In this document: positions 3,090 to 32,147 of the stretch, one piece after another
How the letters are laid out: each line of letters starts with the position of its first letter
Position numbering within the stretch: the first letter of the stretch is position 1
IMG/VR virus record: IMGVR_UViG_3300046010_002745
Location: 1-34,809 of that record
Strand: one strand, 5' to 3'
DNA: 34,809 nt
DNA from: a virus
Program-made: the position numbers and the translations under genes
The notes under the pieces: model-generated
Seen by the model: only the letters and a program-made list of their open reading frames with translations
What the model was told of the DNA's origin: nothing
Database searches by the model: none

Positions 3090-3911
3090 ATGGCGCTTCC
3101 GTCGCGCGTCTTGAACTCTGGCGTCACGTCGCTGAGCACCGCCGCAATCTGCGGCGAGGGCGCGTCAGCGGTGTCGGCAGCCGGATCGACATCCAGCGAC
3201 GCGACCGCGCTGACCAGCATCTACAACCGGATCTCGACCGTCGCCGCGGGCTCTGGCGTGAAGCTGCCGCCCTGCGAGATGGGCGCGACGATCTGGGTGA
3301 CAAACCCGACGGCAACGTCCCTCACGGTCTATCCGTTCGACGCCGGCACGACCATCGGCGGCGCTTCATCGCTTGCAGTCGTCAGCAATTCGTCGGCGTG
3401 CTTTTTTGCCGTCAGCAACACGCGGTGGGAGCATCTGCAGGGCTACGGCGGCGCCCAGGCGCAGGCCGCCTACGGCGCGTTTTCGTCGACCGCTACGCAG
3501 AACGCGGCAACGATCAACACCGCCTATCCCGTAACGCTCAACACGACCGCCGAGGCGTACCTTGTCAGCATCGGCAGCCCGGCTTCGCGGGTCGTGTGCT
3601 CGCAGGCCGGGGTCTACAATTTCCAGTTCAGCATCCAGCTCGACAAGACCGCGGCTTCGACGGCTGCCGTCTATATCTGGTACAGGGTCAACGGGTTCGA
3701 CATCGCCAACAGCGCGACGAAGGTCGCCGTTAACGGCAGCGACGCCGAGACCGTCGCGGCATGGAACTTTGTGCAGGAAATGAACGCAGGCGACTATTTC
3801 GAGCTCGTCTGGTCAACCGACGACACCAACTGCTTCATCGCGGGCTTCGCGGCGTCGCCGCCCGTTCCCGCGATCCCCTCGGTAATCCTGACCGCGGTGC
3901 AGGTCCGATGA
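3090..3911 (+). CDS. Two-domain virion surface protein (paralog domain + C1q/TNF-like domain)
   Basis: This 273-residue protein has two parts. Residues 1 to about 110 are clearly related to the whole 119-residue product of 4699-5058: both start with PSRVL, share an ICG(E/D)GA segment, have GVKLPP near residue 58, and have a SLTVYP/TLTVYP strand. The C-terminal part (about 125-273) is beta-rich, with YNFQFSIQL, the AVYIWYRVNG segment and FELVWSTDD. This pattern resembles C1q/TNF-like jelly-roll domains of phage structural proteins. It follows the capsid module and overlaps the next gene by 4 bases. A head fibre or exposed decoration is the best guess; a tail position is possible. Confidence 0.7.
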   Translation: MALPSRVLNSGVTSLSTAAICGEGASAVSAAGSTSSDATALTSIYNRISTVAAGSGVKLPPCEMGATIWVTNPTATSLTVYPFDAGTTIGGASSLAVVSNSSACFFAVSNTRWEHLQGYGGAQAQAAYGAFSSTATQNAATINTAYPVTLNTTAEAYLVSIGSPASRVVCSQAGVYNFQFSIQLDKTAASTAAVYIWYRVNGFDIANSATKVAVNGSDAETVAAWNFVQEMNAGDYFELVWSTDDTNCFIAGFAASPPVPAIPSVILTAVQVR

Positions 3912-4696
3912 TCGTTGCCGACAACCTCGACCAGACGCTGCCGATTGTCTGCAACACCGCCGACGACCGCATCCGCGCGAACGTCTTGGCGGCCTGCAAG
4001 CTGCCGCTGCCGTGGCTGGATCTGGTCGAGGCTCACGAGCGGCCCGCCATCGTGGTCGGCGGCGGCCCGTCGATGCGGCCCCTGCTGCCGATGATCCGCG
4101 CTCTGCGCGACGGCGGGGCAGAGGTCTACGCCACGAACGGCACGGTGCGGCTGCTGCACTCGGCTGGCGTGACGGCCAATTTCCACGTCCTGCTGGACGC
4201 CCGGCCCGAGAACGTCGCCTTTGTCGATGGTCCCAAGGCTCAGCACTACCTGATCGCCAGCCAGTGCCACCCGCTGCTGTTTGCGGCCATTGCCGGGCAT
4301 CCGCAGACGCTCTGGCACCCGGCCTACCCCGAAATCGACGAGTGGATCGGCCGCCGCGAGGCGGTCCTGATCGGCGGCGGCACGACGGTCGGCCTGCAGG
4401 CCCTGTCGATCGCCTACGCGCTCGGGCACCGCAAGATCCACCTGTTCGGGTTCGATAGCAGCTACTCCGAGGCCGGCGACGGCCATGCCTACGCCCAGGC
4501 GCTGAACGATGACGACGATCGGCAGGAATACCGGGTCGGCGACAGGCGCTTCATCGCTGCGCCATGGATGGTTCGGCAGGCGGTGGAGTACCAGACGGCC
4601 GCGCGTCAATTGTGCGAAGGCGATGCGGAGTTGTATGTTCACGGGACGGGGCTTCTCCCGACCGTTGCCGCCCTCATGGGCAAGGAAAGGAACTGA
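3908..4696 (+). CDS. DUF115/Maf-like (MptE-like) enzyme, possible glycosyltransferase
   Basis: This 262-residue protein has the fold signature of the DUF115 (motility accessory factor / MptE-like) group. It has a glycine-rich loop (VVGGGPSM at about 49-56), an ATNGTVRLL segment at about 75-83, a conserved Asp near 97 (FHVLLDARP), and a second nucleotide-fold segment at about 154-183 (LIGGGTTVGLQ, then IHLFGFDSSY). Relatives include Maf proteins needed for flagellin glycosylation and archaeal pterin diphosphokinases. It sits between two paralogous structural genes, overlapping the first by ATGA and ending 2 bases before the second. That context favours virion or surface sugar modification over pterin chemistry, but the substrate is unknown. 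Confidence 0.75.
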   Translation: MIVADNLDQTLPIVCNTADDRIRANVLAACKLPLPWLDLVEAHERPAIVVGGGPSMRPLLPMIRALRDGGAEVYATNGTVRLLHSAGVTANFHVLLDARPENVAFVDGPKAQHYLIASQCHPLLFAAIAGHPQTLWHPAYPEIDEWIGRREAVLIGGGTTVGLQALSIAYALGHRKIHLFGFDSSYSEAGDGHAYAQALNDDDDRQEYRVGDRRFIAAPWMVRQAVEYQTAARQLCEGDAELYVHGTGLLPTVAALMGKERN

Positions 4697-19314: not shown

Positions 19315-19481
19315 CGTCCTTCCTCCATTTCCACGACCGCCAGCCCGGCAGCCTCGATTGCCCGGATCGTCTCCATCCAGATGTTCGTTCGAACTCGCCG
19401 CACCCGTTCGGCGGCGTCGAACCAGCCGTCTCCGTAGTCCGAGGCCGCGAGGCGCTCGGCTAGGGCGCGGTGGTCGGTCAC
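19311..19481 (-). CDS. Small hypothetical protein, 56 aa
   Basis: The frame starts at GTG 19481, inside a GTGA overlap with the methyltransferase stop, and ends in an ATGA overlap with the next gene. The product is one or two amphipathic helices (ALAERLAASDYGDGWFDAAE, then ETIRAIEAAGLAVVEMEEG). A longer reading of the frame would run back through the methyltransferase coding region and is rejected. The length and helical content resemble small phage regulators or accessory subunits, but nothing specific can be assigned. Confidence 0.6.
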   Translation of the reverse strand: MTDHRALAERLAASDYGDGWFDAAERVRRVRTNIWMETIRAIEAAGLAVVEMEEGR

Positions 19482-20749
19482 GCGCTCACCTTCGCGATGC
19501 GCTCTCCGATCCACCTCATAACCGGCACCGCCATGCTGTTGCCCAAGGCCTTGTACCGCGGCCCGTCTGGACACTCGGCGGGCGGCTTGCCGCGCCAAGG
19601 GATCGCGGTCCAATCGTCGGGGAATCCTTGGAGGCGCTCGCACTCGCGCGGGGTCAGGCGGCGGACTTGCATGGCGCTTTGCAGGCTGAGTCCGCCTGCG
19701 TTCTGACTGGGTTTATAGCCGTTTGCCGTCATCTCCGGCGCAACGTCGACCTTTCGGGCGGCGTCGAAGTTTTCTTCAAACGCCACCGCCACCGTCGCCG
19801 TGCCGCCCTTTGACCCAGTGCCCATCGCGTGCGTCGTGCCGTCGACGCTGCTGATCGGGTCTTGCGTGGGATGGAACGCCACCGGCACCAGCGGCGTCCC
19901 GCGCCCCGTGCCGTCCTCCGATGCGTCGAAGCCCTCGGCGCGCAGCGAGTGGGCGATCGGCACGAACAGCCCCGCGCCGCCGAGCGCGTGCTGGTCTTCA
20001 AGCCCCTGCTTCTTGCCGAACGCGGCGTTGAGCGTCGGCGCAATGTCGGCGGGCCAGCGCACGTCCGCGATCAGTCCTCCGTCAAGCTCGCAGCCGGTGC
20101 CGAGCCCGCCACCGCCTCGAGTGCGCTCTGCAAGGCTGGGGGCAGGTCTTTGCCCCGCCGCTCGGCGCGGCGCAGGATCCCGGCACACGCCTTCGCGCTC
20201 AAATAGAACCTGGGCGGCACGGCGCTGGTCTCCAGCACATCCGACAACGAACACACGGCGGCGTCGCTGGGCCACTCCGAACCACTGAGCGTCCAGCACC
20301 CGGTAGGCCCACCCGTACCCCAGCTGCCCCAGCGCCCCGAGGAAGGAACCAAAATCCCGTCCTCCCCCGCTGGACAGGACGCCGGGGACGTTCTCCCAGA
20401 CAATCCATGCTGGGGCGCGTCCAGCAGCGCGTCGAAGATCGTCGATTGCATTGGCTAGCCTCACGAACTCAAGGGTCAGGTTGCCGCGCGCGTCCGCGAG
20501 CGAGCCGCGCAGGCCCGCAACGCTGAACGCTTGGCACGGGGTGCCGCCGACCAGCAGGTCGGCGTCTACGATCCACGACTGGTCGCGCAGCACGGTGAAG
20601 TCGCCGTGCAGCGGAACGCCAAGGAAGTGATGCTCTAGGACGGCGCGCGGAAATGGCTCGATCTCCGAGAACGCGAGCGGCGTCCATCCAAGGCTGTGCC
20701 AAGCGGCGCTCGCTGCCTCAATACCGCTGCAGACGGACAGATACCTCAT
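19478..20749 (-). CDS. DNA (cytosine-5-)-methyltransferase
   Basis: This 423-residue C5 methyltransferase carries the standard motifs in order: SVCSGIEAASAAW (motif I, about 5-17), SEIEPF (motif II), GGTPCQAFSVAG with catalytic Cys near 72 (motif IV), WENVPGVL near 118 (motif VI), QRRRRVFVVG near 161 (motif VIII), then a variable target-recognition region (about 180-355). It ends with RRLTPRECERLQGFPDDW (motif IX) and LGNSMAVPV (motif X). I chose ATG 20749 because it overlaps the upstream stop as ATGA. No restriction endonuclease gene is adjacent, so it probably protects phage DNA from host restriction or alters expression. The target sequence cannot be read from sequence alone. Confidence 0.93.
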   Translation of the reverse strand: MRYLSVCSGIEAASAAWHSLGWTPLAFSEIEPFPRAVLEHHFLGVPLHGDFTVLRDQSWIVDADLLVGGTPCQAFSVAGLRGSLADARGNLTLEFVRLANAIDDLRRAAGRAPAWIVWENVPGVLSSGGGRDFGSFLGALGQLGYGWAYRVLDAQWFGVAQRRRRVFVVGCAGDQRRAAQVLFEREGVCRDPAPRRAAGQRPAPSLAERTRGGGGLGTGCELDGGLIADVRWPADIAPTLNAAFGKKQGLEDQHALGGAGLFVPIAHSLRAEGFDASEDGTGRGTPLVPVAFHPTQDPISSVDGTTHAMGTGSKGGTATVAVAFEENFDAARKVDVAPEMTANGYKPSQNAGGLSLQSAMQVRRLTPRECERLQGFPDDWTAIPWRGKPPAECPDGPRYKALGNSMAVPVMRWIGERIAKVSA

Positions 20750-20904
20750 CGCAGCATCGCCAGCACGATCACGACGCCGCCGGTCATCGCGCCGAGGATC
20801 GCGGAGACCATGAGGTAGACCGCCGGGCCTTTCGCCCAGCGGTCCTCTTCCATCCACCCGAACGCCTCTCCGGCGGCGCGGATGTGCGGATTCTCGTCGG
20901 TCAT
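20746..20904 (-). CDS. Small single-pass membrane protein, 52 aa
   Basis: The start ATG 20904 overlaps the RecT stop and the end overlaps the methyltransferase start, both as ATGA. The first 27 residues are polar (DENPHIRAAGEAFGWMEEDR) and the rest form one membrane helix (PAVYLMVSAILGAMTGGVVI) that ends near the C terminus. Its fixed position between two DNA-metabolism genes says only that it is expressed early. It could alter the host membrane or exclude other phages; neither can be shown. Confidence 0.65.
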   Translation of the reverse strand: MTDENPHIRAAGEAFGWMEEDRWAKGPAVYLMVSAILGAMTGGVVIVLAMLR

Positions 20905-21845
20905 CCCGCCACCTCGGCCACCCGGCGGCGGCTCTCCTCCATGATGCGCTCGTGCGCGTCGGGCGACGCGGCGCTGATGTCGTCCAGGTTGCCGCGCTGC
21001 GCGAGCATCACGCGGTCGATGTCCTTGACCGTCTGGGCCTTGCGGATCGCCGCGACGATGGCGCGGGCGCGCTCGGCCAGCTCCTGCGGGAGTGCGCCTG
21101 TCGGGGCGTCCGAGGACGCTGCAGCCGGGGAGTCTGCATCCGACGCGGCAGGCGCGGTGTTGTCGGCCTCTTGTTCCACGTTGTCGAGGAGGGCGTCCAT
21201 CGCCTGCGTCACCGCGGCGAGCGGCGACGAGGCGGGGGGCGGGGTGATGTCGCGCATGGTGACGCTGGTCGGCGCGCTGCCGGCGAGGTCGTCGTCGGCG
21301 TGGATGCCGAGGATCGCCTCGGGCATGTACCTGCGCGCCCACTCGCGCGCGCCGCGGTACGCCAGCATCTGATCGGTGTTCTTCTTCCACTGCTCGTTGC
21401 TGGTCTTCCAGCCCGCGACGGTGCCGATGACCTCGCGCGGCTCGGCGTCACCGACGAGCTTGCCCGACACCGTCACGCTGCGCTGGTCGCCCGCGCCGCT
21501 ATAGCGGTAGTCGAGGCTGCCCTGCAGCTTGCCCGAGGCGTTCACGATCGCGGCGATCAGCTTGCCCTCGTAGCCGAGCTTGCCCGACAAGACGTAGGTG
21601 TGCTGCGCAACCGCGAACGGGTCCATCCGCCACCGGAACGCCTGGGCGGCGACGAGGAAGCAGTCGCCCAGCTTGCCCTCGCCGCGCAGGTGCGCGGGGA
21701 CTAGCGAGGCCGACGACATCAGCTTCGCGACACGCTGCAGCTGGCCGAAGATGTCGCTGTCGAGATAGACGGCGACGGGGTCGTTGAAGTCCACCGAGAC
21801 CGCGCGCGGCGCGGTGGCGGTCGGCAGGTTGGTCACGTTGGTCAT
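20901..21845 (-). CDS. recT: RecT-family single-strand annealing protein
   Basis: The product has 314 residues. The core, about 40-190, matches RecT: LRGEGKLGDCFLVAAQAFRW, MDPFAVAQHTYVLSGKLGYE, YRYSGAGDQRSVTVSGKLVG, and the segment around KTSNEQWKKNTDQMLAYRGA followed by REWARRYMPEAILGIHADDD. These proteins coat single-stranded DNA and anneal complementary strands during phage recombination. The C-terminal 100 residues are an Ala/Asp-rich linker and a helical tail that may bind partners. The gene overlaps the RecE-like nuclease gene by 4 bases, the usual exonuclease-annealase pair. The start ATG 21845 lies within that overlap. Confidence 0.9.
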   Translation of the reverse strand: MTNVTNLPTATAPRAVSVDFNDPVAVYLDSDIFGQLQRVAKLMSSASLVPAHLRGEGKLGDCFLVAAQAFRWRMDPFAVAQHTYVLSGKLGYEGKLIAAIVNASGKLQGSLDYRYSGAGDQRSVTVSGKLVGDAEPREVIGTVAGWKTSNEQWKKNTDQMLAYRGAREWARRYMPEAILGIHADDDLAGSAPTSVTMRDITPPPASSPLAAVTQAMDALLDNVEQEADNTAPAASDADSPAAASSDAPTGALPQELAERARAIVAAIRKAQTVKDIDRVMLAQRGNLDDISAASPDAHERIMEESRRRVAEVAG

Positions 21846-22711
21846 GCGACGTACTCCCTCTGGATGCTGGCTGCGATCTCGTTGGCCGCCCACTGCGGAA
21901 TTCCGATTTCGAGAACACCCGCGGTGTAACCCGGCCAGTCGTTGTCCGCAACAGATTTCGCGAAGCGGCGCAGGATCTGGCGCAGCTGCTGGTCGGCGGC
22001 GCTGGCGGCGTCGGCGCTGAGCGCGGCGACGTAGCCCAGATGCGGGGCGTTGCTGCCGACGACCATGAAGGCGTGCGAGGGCCGCTGGACACCGAGCAGC
22101 CCGGCGACGAGGCGGAACATCGCGTCGCCCAGGTCGTAGCGGAGATTGGCGCAAGTGCGCCGCCATGCGTTCGGCGCGGGATTCGCGGTGGTCTTGAGGT
22201 TCACCGCCAGCCCGGCCCTGCCGATCCACAGGTCGGGACGGCACAGCAGCGTCAGGCCAGTTTCCTCGTCTTTCGCGACCATCGTGACCTCGGCTCGACC
22301 GCCGGCCTCGAGGAGGCGGCGGGCGTCGGGCTGGGCCATGAGCGCGTCGCGCATCGAGATGATCTGCATGTGCGCGTCGAAGCTGATGATCGACCGGCCC
22401 TCCTGCGCGTCGCGCCACGCCCTGCCCTCGCGCGTCGAGAAGTTGAGGCCCTCGGGCTTGACCGCGTAGCGGTGGTGGAAGGCGTCGGCACCCTCCAGGA
22501 TGTAGCAGTGCGCGGCGGTGCCGAGCGCCATCGCGGGCGTGCTGTCCGACTGGATGCGATCCGGGTTACCGCGCCAGAACGCGAAGGCGTGAGCCGGGCA
22601 CTCGGTCTCGTAGGCCACGAGGTCGCTGCCGCTGACCGCCGGGGCCGGGATGCCGGTGCCGGACAGGTAGGCGTCGAACGAAACGTCGTGGTGGATGCCT
22701 TCATCGATCAT
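21842..22711 (-). CDS. RecE-like (exodeoxyribonuclease VIII) PD-(D/E)XK nuclease, atypical active site
   Basis: This 289-residue protein resembles the C-terminal nuclease domain of RecE. It has GTAAHCYILEG near 64-74 (catalytic His), CRPDLWIG near 157 (Asp 160), VNLKTTANP near 170 and RYDLGDAMFR near 193. In E. coli RecE the matching residues are H652, D748, D759 and K761. The spacing is the same here, but the residue at the D759 position is Asn (codon AAC, N171), while the Lys is kept. Activity is therefore uncertain. It would resect DNA ends for the RecT partner encoded next. The start overlaps the upstream small gene by 11 bases. Confidence 0.85.
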   Translation of the reverse strand: MIDEGIHHDVSFDAYLSGTGIPAPAVSGSDLVAYETECPAHAFAFWRGNPDRIQSDSTPAMALGTAAHCYILEGADAFHHRYAVKPEGLNFSTREGRAWRDAQEGRSIISFDAHMQIISMRDALMAQPDARRLLEAGGRAEVTMVAKDEETGLTLLCRPDLWIGRAGLAVNLKTTANPAPNAWRRTCANLRYDLGDAMFRLVAGLLGVQRPSHAFMVVGSNAPHLGYVAALSADAASAADQQLRQILRRFAKSVADNDWPGYTAGVLEIGIPQWAANEIAASIQREYVA

Positions 22712-24484: not shown

Positions 24485-24846
24485 GGCGCAAATGGCAGGG
24501 TGTGATCCTGGGCGAGCCGGTTTCCAAGGCCAACAGCCGCCGGATCGTGCGGTTCGGCACGAAGCTACGCGTCATCAAATCCGAGAAGGGGCTGGCCTAC
24601 GTCGAGGCCGTCGCGCGGCAGGTGCCGGAGCTGCCTCCGGATAAGCAGCTGCTGTCACCAATTCGGCTGACCGCGCACATCTACTATTCCAGCAACAGGC
24701 CGGACCTCGATCCGAGCCTGCTGCTGGACGCCTTGCAGGGCCGCATCTACCGCAACGACCGCGCGGTGCGGGAAATGCACCTGTACCACCACCTCGATCG
24801 CACGACGCCGCGGGCCGAGGTCTACCTAGAGGAGATCGACGAATGA
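24481..24846 (+). CDS. RusA-like Holliday junction resolvase
   Basis: This 121-residue protein has the RusA layout: an N-terminal strand with GEPVSKANSRRIV, a middle strand (SPIRLTAHIYYSSNRPDLD), then PSLLLDALQGRIYRNDRAV and a final strand (HHLDRTTPRAEVYLEEID). Asp 75, Asp 77 and Asp 93 match the three metal-binding aspartates of RusA (D70, D72, D91). The loop between DLD and DAL is two residues shorter than in E. coli RusA, and the active-site Lys (K76 there) has no clear match. The enzyme would cleave branched DNA before packaging. It overlaps the genes on both sides as ATGA. Confidence 0.85.
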   Translation: MRRKWQGVILGEPVSKANSRRIVRFGTKLRVIKSEKGLAYVEAVARQVPELPPDKQLLSPIRLTAHIYYSSNRPDLDPSLLLDALQGRIYRNDRAVREMHLYHHLDRTTPRAEVYLEEIDE

Positions 24847-25097
24847 GCGCAGTGAACGACGACCTGACGAGCTACGCCGACCGCCTGACACGCCTGCTCG
24901 ACGCCGCCGACGAGGCGCGCGAGGACATCAAGCAGCTGCGCGTCGAGATCAAGTCCGCGGGCTACGACCCCGCTGCGCTGGTGCGCGTGGTGCAGCTGCG
25001 CCGCGACGAGCGCAAGCGGGCGAAGGAGCAGGAGCGGCTGCAGGCGGTCGCGCTCTACGCTGATCGGCTCGGGGTCCAGCTCGCCCTCGCGCTTTAG
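24843..25097 (+). CDS. GapR-like protein (DUF2312)
   Basis: The product has 84 residues and aligns with the DUF2312/GapR family. It has LTSYADRLTRLLDAADEARE, DIKQLRVEIKSAGYDPAALV and a VQLRRDERKRAKEQERLQAV segment, matching the family pattern 'I.RIE.LEEEK..i..DIK.vy.EAK..GfD...lr..vrlRK.d'. In Caulobacter and relatives GapR is an essential protein that clamps overtwisted DNA ahead of replication forks and transcription. This supports an alphaproteobacterial host. A phage copy next to the initiator gene could aid phage replication or interfere with host GapR. It is the last gene before a non-coding interval. Confidence 0.85.
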   Translation: MSAVNDDLTSYADRLTRLLDAADEAREDIKQLRVEIKSAGYDPAALVRVVQLRRDERKRAKEQERLQAVALYADRLGVQLALAL

Positions 25098-25338: not shown

Positions 25339-25370
25339 GCGCCCCGCCGGGCTGGAACCGGGCGGGGCGC
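25339..25370. terminator. Strong GC hairpin, possible terminator or processing signal
   Basis: GCGCCCCGCC (25339-25348) and GGCGGGGCGC (25361-25370) form a perfect 10-bp stem around a 12-base loop, 18 bases after the stop of the tiny membrane peptide. No U tract follows (aacggactgc), so classic rho-independent termination is unlikely. It may slow polymerase, protect the 3' end or separate the early genes from the replication genes. Confidence 0.5.
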
Positions 25371-25454: not shown

Positions 25455-26324
25455 ATGGACCCGCTAGTACCGCCGGAGGTCGATCTCCGGAATTTCACCT
25501 ACATGCCGCTCGACGTGGTTCGGCTGCGCGACAGCGACATCGCGGGCGTCGAGGACGGCGAAGTCTTCCGCGCGGCGGTCCTCGCGTGGTGCGCCGCTTG
25601 GCATCAGGTTCCCGCCGCCAGCTTGCCCGACGACGACGCCCTGCTGGCCCGCCTGACCGGCTACGGACGCGACATGGCGACCTGGAGGCGGGTTCGCGAG
25701 GCTGGCGCGCTGCGCGGTTTTGTGCGGTGCAGCGATGGCCGTCTCTACCACCCGGTTGTGGCCGAGAAGGCGTTGGAAGCGTGGGACAAAAAGGGCCGCC
25801 AAGTTGAGCGCACGCGACGCGCCACGGAGGCCGCTGCGGAGCGCGCACGGGTGCGTAGAGAATCCGTTACGGATTCCGTAACGGACTCCAAGGAGAGGAG
25901 AGGAGAGGAAAGGAATAGAGAGGAAAGAGATATCGGAAACGTCCCTCCCAGTTCTGGGGGGTCCGGGGGGACGCGCGCAGAGCGCGCCGACCGCGGGGCG
26001 CGCCTGCCGGCGGATTGGTCACCGACGGAGGACGACCGCGCGTTCGCGGCCAGCATCGGCGTCGCGGTTGAGCGCGAGGCGGCGTCGTTCCGCGACTATT
26101 GGCATGCCAAGCCCGGCGCGGACGGGCGCAAGACCAACTGGTCGGCAACCTGGCGCAACTGGGTGCGCCGGACATCGGAAAGGAAGCAGGGCAATGGCAC
26201 AGGATCTCGATCTCAGTCCCGCAACGGGTTTATCGTTCTCGCTGAGCGCCTTGCTCGGGAGGATGCAGACCGAGCAGCCGGGCGCCCCGCTGGCGATTTC
26301 TTCGACCCAGAAGGCCGAGGCTGA
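25455..26324 (+). CDS. Replication initiator / helicase-loader type protein (DUF1376 + O-like C terminus)
   Basis: The product has 289 residues. The N terminus (about 1-110) follows the DUF1376 pattern: PLDVVRLRDSDIAG, an Ala/Trp helix, LPDDDALLARLTGYGRDMAT and LYHPVVAEKALEAWDKKGRQ. A low-complexity charged linker follows (about 115-180). The C-terminal unit at about 185-240 (LPADWSPTEDDRAFAASIGV, then FRDYWHAKPGADGRKTNWSA and TWRNWVRR) is the type that ends lambda-O- and DnaT-like phage initiators. It probably loads the host helicase at the phage origin, for which the linker DNA is the best candidate. The last 43 codons overlap the next gene. Confidence 0.8.
   Translation: MDPLVPPEVDLRNFTYMPLDVVRLRDSDIAGVEDGEVFRAAVLAWCAAWHQVPAASLPDDDALLARLTGYGRDMATWRRVREAGALRGFVRCSDGRLYHPVVAEKALEAWDKKGRQVERTRRATEAAAERARVRRESVTDSVTDSKERRGEERNREERDIGNVPPSSGGSGGTRAERADRGARLPADWSPTEDDRAFAASIGVAVEREAASFRDYWHAKPGADGRKTNWSATWRNWVRRTSERKQGNGTGSRSQSRNGFIVLAERLAREDADRAAGRPAGDFFDPEGRG
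25863..25930. promoter_or_regulatory. Candidate replication origin: inverted repeat plus purine tract
   Basis: TCCGTTACGG (25863-25872) and CCGTAACGGA (25876-25885) are perfect 10-bp inverted arms around ATT. A purine-only run follows at 25890-25915 and 25917-25930, broken by a single T. A further G-rich hairpin (25944-25961) lies just downstream. This is the sharpest break from the local base composition and lies in the linker region of the initiator gene, as in lambda O. It is a candidate, not proven. Confidence 0.5.
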
Positions 26325-26784
26325 GCGCGCCCTGGCGGCGATTGAGGCCGCCCTGCAGCCCGCACCGCAGGCGCTGGCGCTGCGCTGGATCTCGGCGCTT
26401 GGCACCCTGACGGCGACCAAGCCGGGCGAGGCCGACGGCGATGCCAAGGCCAGGGCCTACGCAGCGATGCTGGAATATCCGGGGTCAGCGTTCAGCCGGG
26501 CGAGCCTCGACGCGGCGGCGCGCAAGTTCCGGTGGTTCCCGAGCTACGCTGAGGTCTGTGAGCACCTCGAGGCCGAGGTCGCGGCGGCGAAGGCCCAGCG
26601 CCACCAGCTGCGCCGGGCGGTCGCGCTGCCGGCGGAAGGGTCGAGGCCGGTCGGGAAGTGGTCCACGATGACCGACGAGCAGAAGGCGGAATTCGAGTCG
26701 ACGATGGCGAAGTTCCGGTCCCGGTTCGCCTCGGATGCCTCGCGCGGCCCCGAGGATGGCGCAGGAAGCGCGGAAGCCCGCTGA
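26194..26784 (+). CDS. Putative replication accessory protein, 196 aa
   Basis: The start ATG 26194 has AGGAAG about 7 bases upstream and lies 131 bases inside the initiator gene, in another frame. The product is helical: AEAERALAAIEAALQPAPQA, then KARAYAAMLEYPGSAFSRA, SLDAAARKFRWFPSYAEVCE and a charged coiled end. The pattern 'Y...L...P..A...A......ffPs.aE' is common in proteins encoded next to phage initiators, where helicase loading is suspected. I cannot confirm a family. It is the last gene of the rightward early operon and faces the leftward pair at 26834-27285. Confidence 0.7.
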   Translation: MAQDLDLSPATGLSFSLSALLGRMQTEQPGAPLAISSTQKAEAERALAAIEAALQPAPQALALRWISALGTLTATKPGEADGDAKARAYAAMLEYPGSAFSRASLDAAARKFRWFPSYAEVCEHLEAEVAAAKAQRHQLRRAVALPAEGSRPVGKWSTMTDEQKAEFESTMAKFRSRFASDASRGPEDGAGSAEAR

Positions 26785-30197: not shown

Positions 30198-30914
30198 ATG
30201 GCGATGACGCGCGAGCAGATGGACGAGTTCGACCGCATCATGATGGGCATGCCGGCGCGGCAAGCGGGCAATGCGCCCGTTCGCGCCATGACGCCGACGC
30301 CGGAGTCGATGGACCCGATGCTGCGACCAGAGGGCACCGCCGGCGGCCCTGTCGTCAGCTACAGCCTCGACGACATCCGTCGCTTTCTCGGCATGGGCGG
30401 CCGCCCCGCGATGTCGCCCGCCGAGGCTGCCGACGCCGCGCAGATGTACGAGCGTCTGCCCAACGCCGCCCTTCCTCCGACGCCGCCCGGCGACTACGAC
30501 GCGCCGTCGCCGTCGATCCCGTACATGCCTAGCACCGACCCGCGTGGCGCTGCGGCCCCGATCCCGGCGCCGCCGCGCCCTGCCGCCCCGCCGCGTCCGC
30601 GCCTGCCGGTGATGCAGGGTCTGCCGACGAACGAGGCGGGCTTCGTGCCGCCGCGCCCCGACACGTTCGGCGGCGTGACGCCGGCGGACATGGCGGCGAT
30701 GCCGATGGCGCGCCCCATGCCAGTTGATCCAATCGGTATCCCTCGACCCGCCATTCCGTCAGGCGCGATGGTTCCGGGCACGATGCCCGGCGAGGCGGCC
30801 AATGTGCCATTGCGCGCCACACCGCAGCAACTCGCGCAAGCAATGCGAAGGTTTGGCCGCATGGAGCTCGATCCAAACAGCTTCGCCGCACGGTTTGCGC
30901 GCACACAGCGATGA
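30198..30914 (+). CDS. Pro/Ala/Met-rich hypothetical protein, 238 aa
   Basis: The N-terminal 100 residues hold short helices (TREQMDEFDRIMMGMPARQ, then SYSLDDIRRFLGMGG). The middle is a Pro-rich, probably disordered region with repeated PRP/PPRP segments (about 105-200). The C terminus returns to a helix (PQQLAQAMRRFGRMELDP). A low-complexity protein of this kind upstream of the portal could be an internal or tail-associated virion part; nothing diagnostic is seen. An ATGA overlap links it to the glycosyltransferase gene. Confidence 0.7.
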   Translation: MAMTREQMDEFDRIMMGMPARQAGNAPVRAMTPTPESMDPMLRPEGTAGGPVVSYSLDDIRRFLGMGGRPAMSPAEAADAAQMYERLPNAALPPTPPGDYDAPSPSIPYMPSTDPRGAAAPIPAPPRPAAPPRPRLPVMQGLPTNEAGFVPPRPDTFGGVTPADMAAMPMARPMPVDPIGIPRPAIPSGAMVPGTMPGEAANVPLRATPQQLAQAMRRFGRMELDPNSFAARFARTQR

Positions 30915-31525
30915 TCTCGATCGCCACCGTCCTGCGATCCGGCGGCGACTACCGCCCCGAGCATGTCCGCGCCCTAGCCGACATGTGCGCGCGTTTTGCG
31001 CCGGCGCACCGTTTCGTGGTGCTGACCGACACCTGCTACGCGTTCGCCGAGGACGACGACATCGAGGCCCGGCCGTTGCGCCACGATTGGCCCGGCTGGT
31101 GGGCGAAGATGGAGTTGTTCGAGCTGCCCGGCCCCGTCCTGTTCTTCGACCTCGACACCGTGCTGCGCCGCGATATCACGCCGCTGGTCGAGCTAGTCCG
31201 CGACGAGGAGTTCGTCATCCTGCGCGACTTCTACCGCGGCCGCAGCAACCGCAACGCCATGCAATCGTCGATGATGTGGTGGGATGGCGACCTGTCGAGG
31301 CTGACCGCAGAGTTTGAGGCTGACCCTCGGTATTACCTCGGCGGCGACCAGGAATGGTTGGAACAGCATTACGCCGGCGAGCTGGCGTTTTGGCAGGACG
31401 TCGCGCCGCGCGCGATCGGCAGCTTCAAGGCTAGCCCGCGCACTAAGAACGAGCGCGTCATCATCTTCCACGGCCAGCCGCGTCCGTGGCAGCAGACCGA
31501 GGTGCCATACCATGCAGCGGCGTGA
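30911..31525 (+). CDS. Glycosyltransferase, GT-A type with DxD motif
   Basis: This 204-residue protein shows a short GT-A-like fold. An N-terminal nucleotide-sugar half (ISIATVLRSGGDYRPEHVRA, then HRFVVLTDT) leads to VLFFDLDTVLRRDI, with the DxD metal motif at about 80-82. A second acidic motif, GGDQEWLEQHY, lies near 144. The segment WPGWWAKMELFELPGPVLFF is typical of short phage glycosyltransferases. It may add sugar to virion proteins, phage DNA or host surface glycans. It overlaps the FkbM-like methyltransferase gene by 14 bases, so the two probably act together. Confidence 0.8.
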   Translation: MISIATVLRSGGDYRPEHVRALADMCARFAPAHRFVVLTDTCYAFAEDDDIEARPLRHDWPGWWAKMELFELPGPVLFFDLDTVLRRDITPLVELVRDEEFVILRDFYRGRSNRNAMQSSMMWWDGDLSRLTAEFEADPRYYLGGDQEWLEQHYAGELAFWQDVAPRAIGSFKASPRTKNERVIIFHGQPRPWQQTEVPYHAAA

Positions 31526-32147
31526 AGGCTGGCACGTTCCCGAAGCCGACCAAGTTGCGCTTGAAATCATCCTGCGCGAGGTCGACGACCTGCGAACCGA
31601 CATCCTGCCTCTCACCGACAAACACCGCACCGCAATCCAAGCCGGCGGCAATGTCGGCATCTGGCCAATAGAGCTCGCGATGCATTTCGCCCGGGTCGTG
31701 ACCGTGGAGCCGGACGAGTTCAACCACGCGGCCATGATGGCAAACCTCGACGATCGCTTGCTTGGAGCCAATCGCGCGCGCGTCATGGCCTACCGCGGCG
31801 CATTCGGCGCGCAGCCCGGCACCGGCGCGATGGACCGTTTCGACCCGCACAATGTTGGCGCGCACCGAGTGGCTGACGGCGCCGAGTTCGCGATCATGAG
31901 GATCGACAGCCTAGAAATCGAGGACTGCGACCTGCTTTGCCTTGATGTGGAGGGCTTCGAGCATTTCGCGGTGCAGGGTGCCGAGCGCACCATCAAGCGG
32001 TCGTGGCCTACGATCGTGCTGGAGCTCAAGGGCCTCGGCGAGCGCTACGGCGTGACCGACGTTGACACCATCACCATGCTGGCGGATTGGGGCTATATGA
32101 TCGCCGGGCATGTCCATCGCGACGTCATCTTCCGCAGGAGGCCGTGA
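31512..32147 (+). CDS. FkbM-family methyltransferase
   Basis: The product has 211 residues. It has a SAM-binding first motif, IQAGGNVGIWPIELA (about 42-56), with Gln where many FkbM proteins have Asp. VVTVEPDEFNHAAMM follows as the acidic second strand, then LLCLDVEGFEHFAVQGAE near 139, the usual FkbM 'D.EG.E..v..Ga' motif, and PTIVLELKG. FkbM proteins O-methylate sugars and other small molecules. The 14-base overlap with the glycosyltransferase suggests methylation of the transferred sugar. Its stop overlaps the portal ATG (TGATG). Confidence 0.85.
   Translation: MQRREGWHVPEADQVALEIILREVDDLRTDILPLTDKHRTAIQAGGNVGIWPIELAMHFARVVTVEPDEFNHAAMMANLDDRLLGANRARVMAYRGAFGAQPGTGAMDRFDPHNVGAHRVADGAEFAIMRIDSLEIEDCDLLCLDVEGFEHFAVQGAERTIKRSWPTIVLELKGLGERYGVTDVDTITMLADWGYMIAGHVHRDVIFRRRP

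Follow-up and report, generated by a model that had tools for sequence, protein, structure and literature searches.

The linker-coding part of the initiator gene of this phage very probably contains the phage's own replication origin. In the stretch analyzed here (a 34,809-bp IMG/VR virus record, called the window below), two palindromic iterons and an adjoining tandem tract occupy positions 25863 to 25930, and their sequence points to an origin that would work by a lambda-type mechanism. The case is built on properties computed directly: the layout of the elements, its recurrence in relatives, the order in which the elements occur, the low stability of the duplex, and constraint at the DNA level. 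The preliminary description had placed a candidate origin in this part of the gene, and that placement is supported; the tract encodes residues 146 to 159, within the linker that AlphaFold2 models with low confidence between two domains.

The window carries terminase, portal, and lysis genes. Its initiator gene (25455 to 26324, plus strand; 289 residues) encodes a DUF1376-like N-domain, a disordered linker, and a DnaT-like C-domain; in the AlphaFold2 model, the N-domain with a long helix spans residues 1 to 144, the low-confidence linker spans about 146 to 180, and the C-domain spans 181 to 247. The match to DUF1376 (PF07120) covers residues 16 to 105 (E = 4e-5; 24.3 bits, below the Pfam gathering cutoff of 30.1), and that to DnaT (PF17948) covers residues 184 to 247, encoded at 26004 to 26195 on the plus strand (E = 7e-4; 19.6 bits, below the gathering cutoff of 25). 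PHROG matches are strong (“replication protein,” E = 3e-47, and also primosomal and replication initiation protein), the best matches in a library of predicted viral folds are DUF1376 proteins (E of 1e-15), and relatives L041, L044, L055, L062, and L066 exceed the DUF1376 gathering score. A fold search of the PDB with the initiator returned no significant match, DnaT (2ru8) ranking third at E = 0.8. The protein had been labeled a DUF1376/O-like initiator. The first half of that label is likely, at a score below gathering but with support from viral folds. As to the second half, the Pfam matches of the window protein are to DUF1376 and DnaT only, with none to Phage_rep_O (PF04492), which lambda O itself matches with an E of 6e-36.

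An ORF with its ATG at 26194 (26194 to 26784, plus strand) overlaps the end of the initiator gene by 131 nt. It occupies the position of a lambda P-like helicase loader and has no PHROG or Pfam match, relaxed E-values included. Directly 5′ of the replication module is a gene for a small GapR-like DNA-binding protein (24843 to 25097, plus strand; PF10073, E of 1e-10). GapR is a binder of overtwisted DNA in alphaproteobacteria, and a phage GapR-like copy beside an initiator is notable. The gap preceding the initiator gene holds a 13-bp inverted repeat, GCGCCCCGCCGGG / CCGGGCGGGGCGC (25339 to 25370), that resembles a terminator or an attenuator. Farther away, MptE-like, glycosyltransferase-like, and FkbM methyltransferase-like genes (3761 to 4696 and 30911 to 32147) possibly form a sugar-modification set.

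The iterons on the plus strand, TCCGTTACGGA (25863 to 25873) and TCCGTAACGGA (25875 to 25885), lie 12 bp apart from start to start and encode the end of the initiator's long helix. They had been described as a perfect 10-bp inverted repeat; the repeat is present, but its arms are 11 bp, with a single T between them, and because each arm is itself palindromic, the structure is really two direct copies of TCCGTWACGGA. With at most one mismatch allowed, these two are the only matches to that motif in the window (0.28 expected by shuffling). Taken alone, the inverted repeat is not extreme, with 15 pairs listed in the window and P = 0.03 under synonymous resampling. Iteron 1 is kept in relatives L026 to L039, and the central base of iteron 2 varies between T and A in relatives.

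The tract, (GGAGA)3 GGAAA GGAAT AGAGA GGAAA GAGA, runs from 25890 to 25930 on the plus strand with a period of 5, which Tandem Repeats Finder (TRF) also reports at 25890 to 25927. As claimed at the outset, it spans 41 nt with one pyrimidine (40/41 purines); no longer run of this kind exists on either strand, and the best with one pyrimidine on the other strand measures 20 nt. It departs from its GC-rich surroundings, as had also been noted, with a GC content of 0.46 against 0.67 for the window, and at 46% GC it is not AT rich in absolute terms. A nearest-neighbor scan of all 34.8 kb located the weakest duplex in the tract region for windows of 20, 30, 40, and 50 bp (starts 25884 to 25914); at 60, 80, and 100 bp, too, the weakest window includes the tract. 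These duplex energies use SantaLucia parameters and the hybrid energies given below use Sugimoto parameters. We propose that the tract could serve as the unwinding element and the site at which single-stranded DNA is loaded.

One might argue that the tract merely encodes a flexible, charged, disordered linker and that its tandem repeats are neutral slippage that the protein tolerates. The encoded region is indeed predicted to be disordered, and such linkers tolerate low complexity; many of the tracts in relatives have a period of 6, a multiple of 3, and some (L214 and L217) are not significant against synonymous shuffles. We nevertheless regard a purely protein-level origin of the tract as quite improbable. 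Given the encoded peptide and the codon usage of the window, the scarcity of pyrimidines has a P of 5e-6, and all five arginine codons in the tract are the rare AGA or AGG, which make up 7% of arginine codons in the other genes. The encoded peptides vary widely among relatives, and the same DNA repeat is read in different frames: GGGACA repeats encode GTGT in eight genes but QGQG in two, AACCAG repeats encode NQNQ and in one case QPEP, and in L036 to L039 an inserted G reshapes the tract so that the same repeat appears in another frame. The periods themselves, and the fixed order in which tract and iterons adjoin, also speak against this explanation, as described below. The suggestion that the DNA rather than the peptide is under selection is thus supported by codon choice, by the same repeat in different frames, by the weakest duplex, and by recurrence in relatives, including a set chosen blind to repeats.

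Close relatives (L026 to L035) keep both iterons and tract. Other relatives differ in sequence but not in layout: TTCCGCYGGAA iterons are followed by (AGGGAG)n, TGTCCC..GGGACA by (GGGACA)n, AACGTTACG by (ACAACC)n, and CAACGNNCGTT by (ACCCATT)n; the units, among which AACCAG is another, are usually T poor on the coding strand. For a quantitative comparison, 42 nonredundant genomic DUF1376 genes, found by HMM in about 1,150 genomes without regard to repeats and made nonredundant by shared 8-mers (a crude measure), were set against 221 control ORFs picked by length from the same loci, and tandem repeats of lag 4 to 8 in each gene were compared with synonymous-codon shuffles of that gene. The tract beat the shuffles at P < 0.01 in 15/42 DUF1376 genes versus 5/221 controls (Fisher 9e-10) and at P < 0.05 in 22/42 versus 15/221. 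By this measure, roughly half of the DUF1376 genes lack a significant tract. Part of the 42-gene set had been seen before the test was chosen. The loci fetched after the hypothesis was formed (L243 to L266) gave 7/18 at P < 0.01 and 9/18 at P < 0.05, and the recurrence therefore holds out. In the lambda O family (PF04492), of which few genes were found, 1/7 had a significant tract, and we therefore do not generalize to that family. The Bartonella prophage relatives have no 5- to 7-bp tract; in one locus, L004 (Bartonella sp. F02), the linker instead has a long array of 12-bp repeats similar to TCTCAAGGCTCG.

Across the DUF1376 genes, the lag spectrum peaks at 5 to 7 and at 10 to 12 and is flat at 3 and 9; the first peak is the tract and the second the iterons. 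Enrichment of periods 5 and 7 without 3 and 9 is the opposite of in-frame slippage, and it speaks against a codon or slippage origin because either would favor multiples of three. Within the 130 nt 5′ of the tract, direct repeats were found in 30/70 cases versus 2/120 control positions and palindromes in 24/70 versus 4/120; iteron-like repeats preceded the tract in 26 cases and followed it in 1. Tracts average 8% T, versus 17% in the rest of the gene; T falls below the level of the remaining gene sequence in 43/52 and below A in 48/52, and 22/52 contain no T at all. Tract regions fell in the weakest 1% of their own locus in 30/53 cases, versus 7% for random spans, yet 15/52 tracts exceed their own gene in GC content. 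Thus, easy melting is neither universal nor the whole story, and AT richness as a property of all members is ruled out. Homopurine composition as the conserved property is likewise ruled out by relatives that use ACAACC, ACCCATT, and AACCAG. On sequence grounds, the conserved feature is a usually T-poor tandem tract of period 5 to 7, not a homopurine run.

Three natural chimeras (L044, L049, and L051) help to place the elements within the initiator module. Their C-domain DNA is 88 to 95% identical to that of the window, and the start of the downstream ORF (26194) is kept, whereas the N-domain (39 to 44%), the iterons, and the tract are different, with the breakpoint just 3′ of the tract. Because iterons and tract change along with the N-domain against a nearly constant C-domain DNA, both appear to travel with the N-domain, as would be expected if the N-domain binds the iterons. 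A breakpoint so near the tract could also suggest that the repeats are a recombination joint or, given that initiators often bind iterons for self-regulation, an autoregulatory operator rather than an origin. We consider either role highly unlikely: the sites lie some 400 bp inside the gene and flank the weak duplex, and because the tract sequence differs between the swapped modules, the tract is not shared homology for recombination.

Two further features bear on the origin assignment. The preliminary description had included a second G-rich hairpin in the origin; its stem, CCCAG-TT-CTGGG (about 25943 to 25961, plus strand), is present, but it finds no support as an origin part, folding no better than shuffles (z = −0.84), and hairpins downstream of the tract in relatives are not enriched (3/70 versus 8/120 control positions). 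By eye, such hairpins seemed common, as in phi297 (AGTCCTAC..GTAGGACT) and the Bartonella prophages, but they are not enriched over synonymous shuffles, and we rejected the hairpin as a third origin element. A GC-skew minimum elsewhere had been named as evidence against an origin here. The cumulative minimum lies at about 20 to 21.5 kb, 4 to 5 kb to the left of the candidate origin, and nominally counts against it; because minus-strand genes lie nearby, we take it as uninformative rather than as a refutation. The minus strand from 19478 to 22418, close to this minimum, encodes a C5 cytosine methylase and a RecT-like annealing protein.

For the origin at 25863 to 25930, we infer a course that leads from binding by the initiator through melting and the capture of one strand to loading of the helicase. 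Dimers of the initiator N-domain would bind both palindromic iterons (25863 to 25885), and the resulting nucleoprotein complex would strain the adjacent 41-bp tract (25890 to 25930), which might open because of its strong strand asymmetry and its position in the record's weakest duplex. One exposed strand would then be held. The DnaT-like C-terminal domain would most likely do this and may then recruit the loader and the host DnaB helicase. The tract would be one version of a general element, a usually T-poor repeat of period 5 to 7 directly 3′ of palindromic iterons about 11 bp apart; among the DUF1376 initiator genes sampled, about half carry iterons with a tract of this kind.

Since melting is an incomplete account, two additions can be envisioned, strand-specific recognition of the single strand or a stable RNA-DNA hybrid. 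In the latter, transcription would open the origin through a U-poor nascent RNA that forms a stable R-loop, a strong form of the transcriptional activation known from lambda. Among 34,769 plus-strand windows, the tract comes 10th in predicted hybrid advantage, the low T content of the tracts in relatives fits, and ori-lambda needs transcription (PMC5043065). The relatives show a modest hybrid advantage overall (median rank, 0.23; top 5% in 20/52), and the ACCCATT and ACAACC units are hardly favored with the same parameters. R-loop preference is therefore at best a partial explanation, weak in many relatives, and we rejected it as the sole one; an origin that is opened in this way seems unlikely. 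More plausible to us, and still tentative, is that DUF1376-type initiators share an undescribed origin grammar in which palindromic iterons in an approximately 11-bp register are followed by a T-poor half-turn (5- to 7-bp) repeat, which the initiator or the loader might read as a single strand, beyond mere easy melting, as a phage counterpart of the DnaA-trios. The footprint of DnaT was considered as the source of the period and rejected. Each DnaT subunit binds 2 nt, and 5 subunits make up one turn (PMC4132743), a geometry that fits periods of 5 or 7 poorly; tracts also occur with other C-domains (phi297 and L131).

If the origin reading is right, these repeats would provide a computable origin signature for a large and poorly studied group of temperate phages, those with DUF1376 (YdaU) initiators, allowing origin prediction where no origin is known, and they would support a function for a “domain of unknown function.” They also raise the question of why a period of 5 to 7 bp and low T are kept while the sequence and the frame of the tract change freely.

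We found no literature, among open papers, on origins in DUF1376/YdaU genes. A familiar member is ydaU of the Rac prophage in E. coli K-12 (L088, 5120 to 5977). In this DUF1376 gene, TGTTCAAACA-type repeats precede an A-rich, T-poor tract, a likeness to the initiator gene of the window; as a difference, the ydaU tract alone is not significant (P = 0.11). Rac has an active origin, oriJ (PMC3945230), for which ydaU is a candidate location by this likeness; open papers yielded none that maps oriJ to ydaU. The DnaA-trios and the DnaD recognition element of bacterial oriC offer a second comparison. There, a short-period motif beside the initiator boxes is read as a single strand on one side and directs helicase loading (PMC10201434). 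The short-period motif adjoining initiator sites is shared, whereas the period is 3 rather than 5 to 7, the proteins are others, the repeat sequence varies between phages, and single-strand reading is, for the phage element, our proposal.

The closest parallel is the lambda origin in gene O, where the linker-coding part of the initiator gene likewise carries palindromic iterons with a weak, strand-asymmetric tract on their 3′ side. As a positive control, our scan placed the weakest 40-mer of lambda O in the known AT-rich region, immediately behind the last iteron (gene position 436), and detected a lag-7 repeat within that region (P = 0.037). In lambda, two iterons and the neighboring tract are the minimal unwinding unit (PMC7466680), and one strand of the tract consists almost entirely of purines (PMC5043065). 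Mutations isolated as origin defects in lambda include in-frame deletions that remove 12 and 15 bp from the AT-rich region yet leave O able to complement in trans (PMC6022878). The window differs in having two 11-bp iterons rather than four of 18 bp, a pentamer tandem tract of 46% GC, an initiator that matches DUF1376 and DnaT rather than Phage_rep_O, and a downstream gene without a family match. What is new, then, is a presumably lambda-like way of working with an initiator from outside the lambda O family and a tandem tract of moderate GC content.
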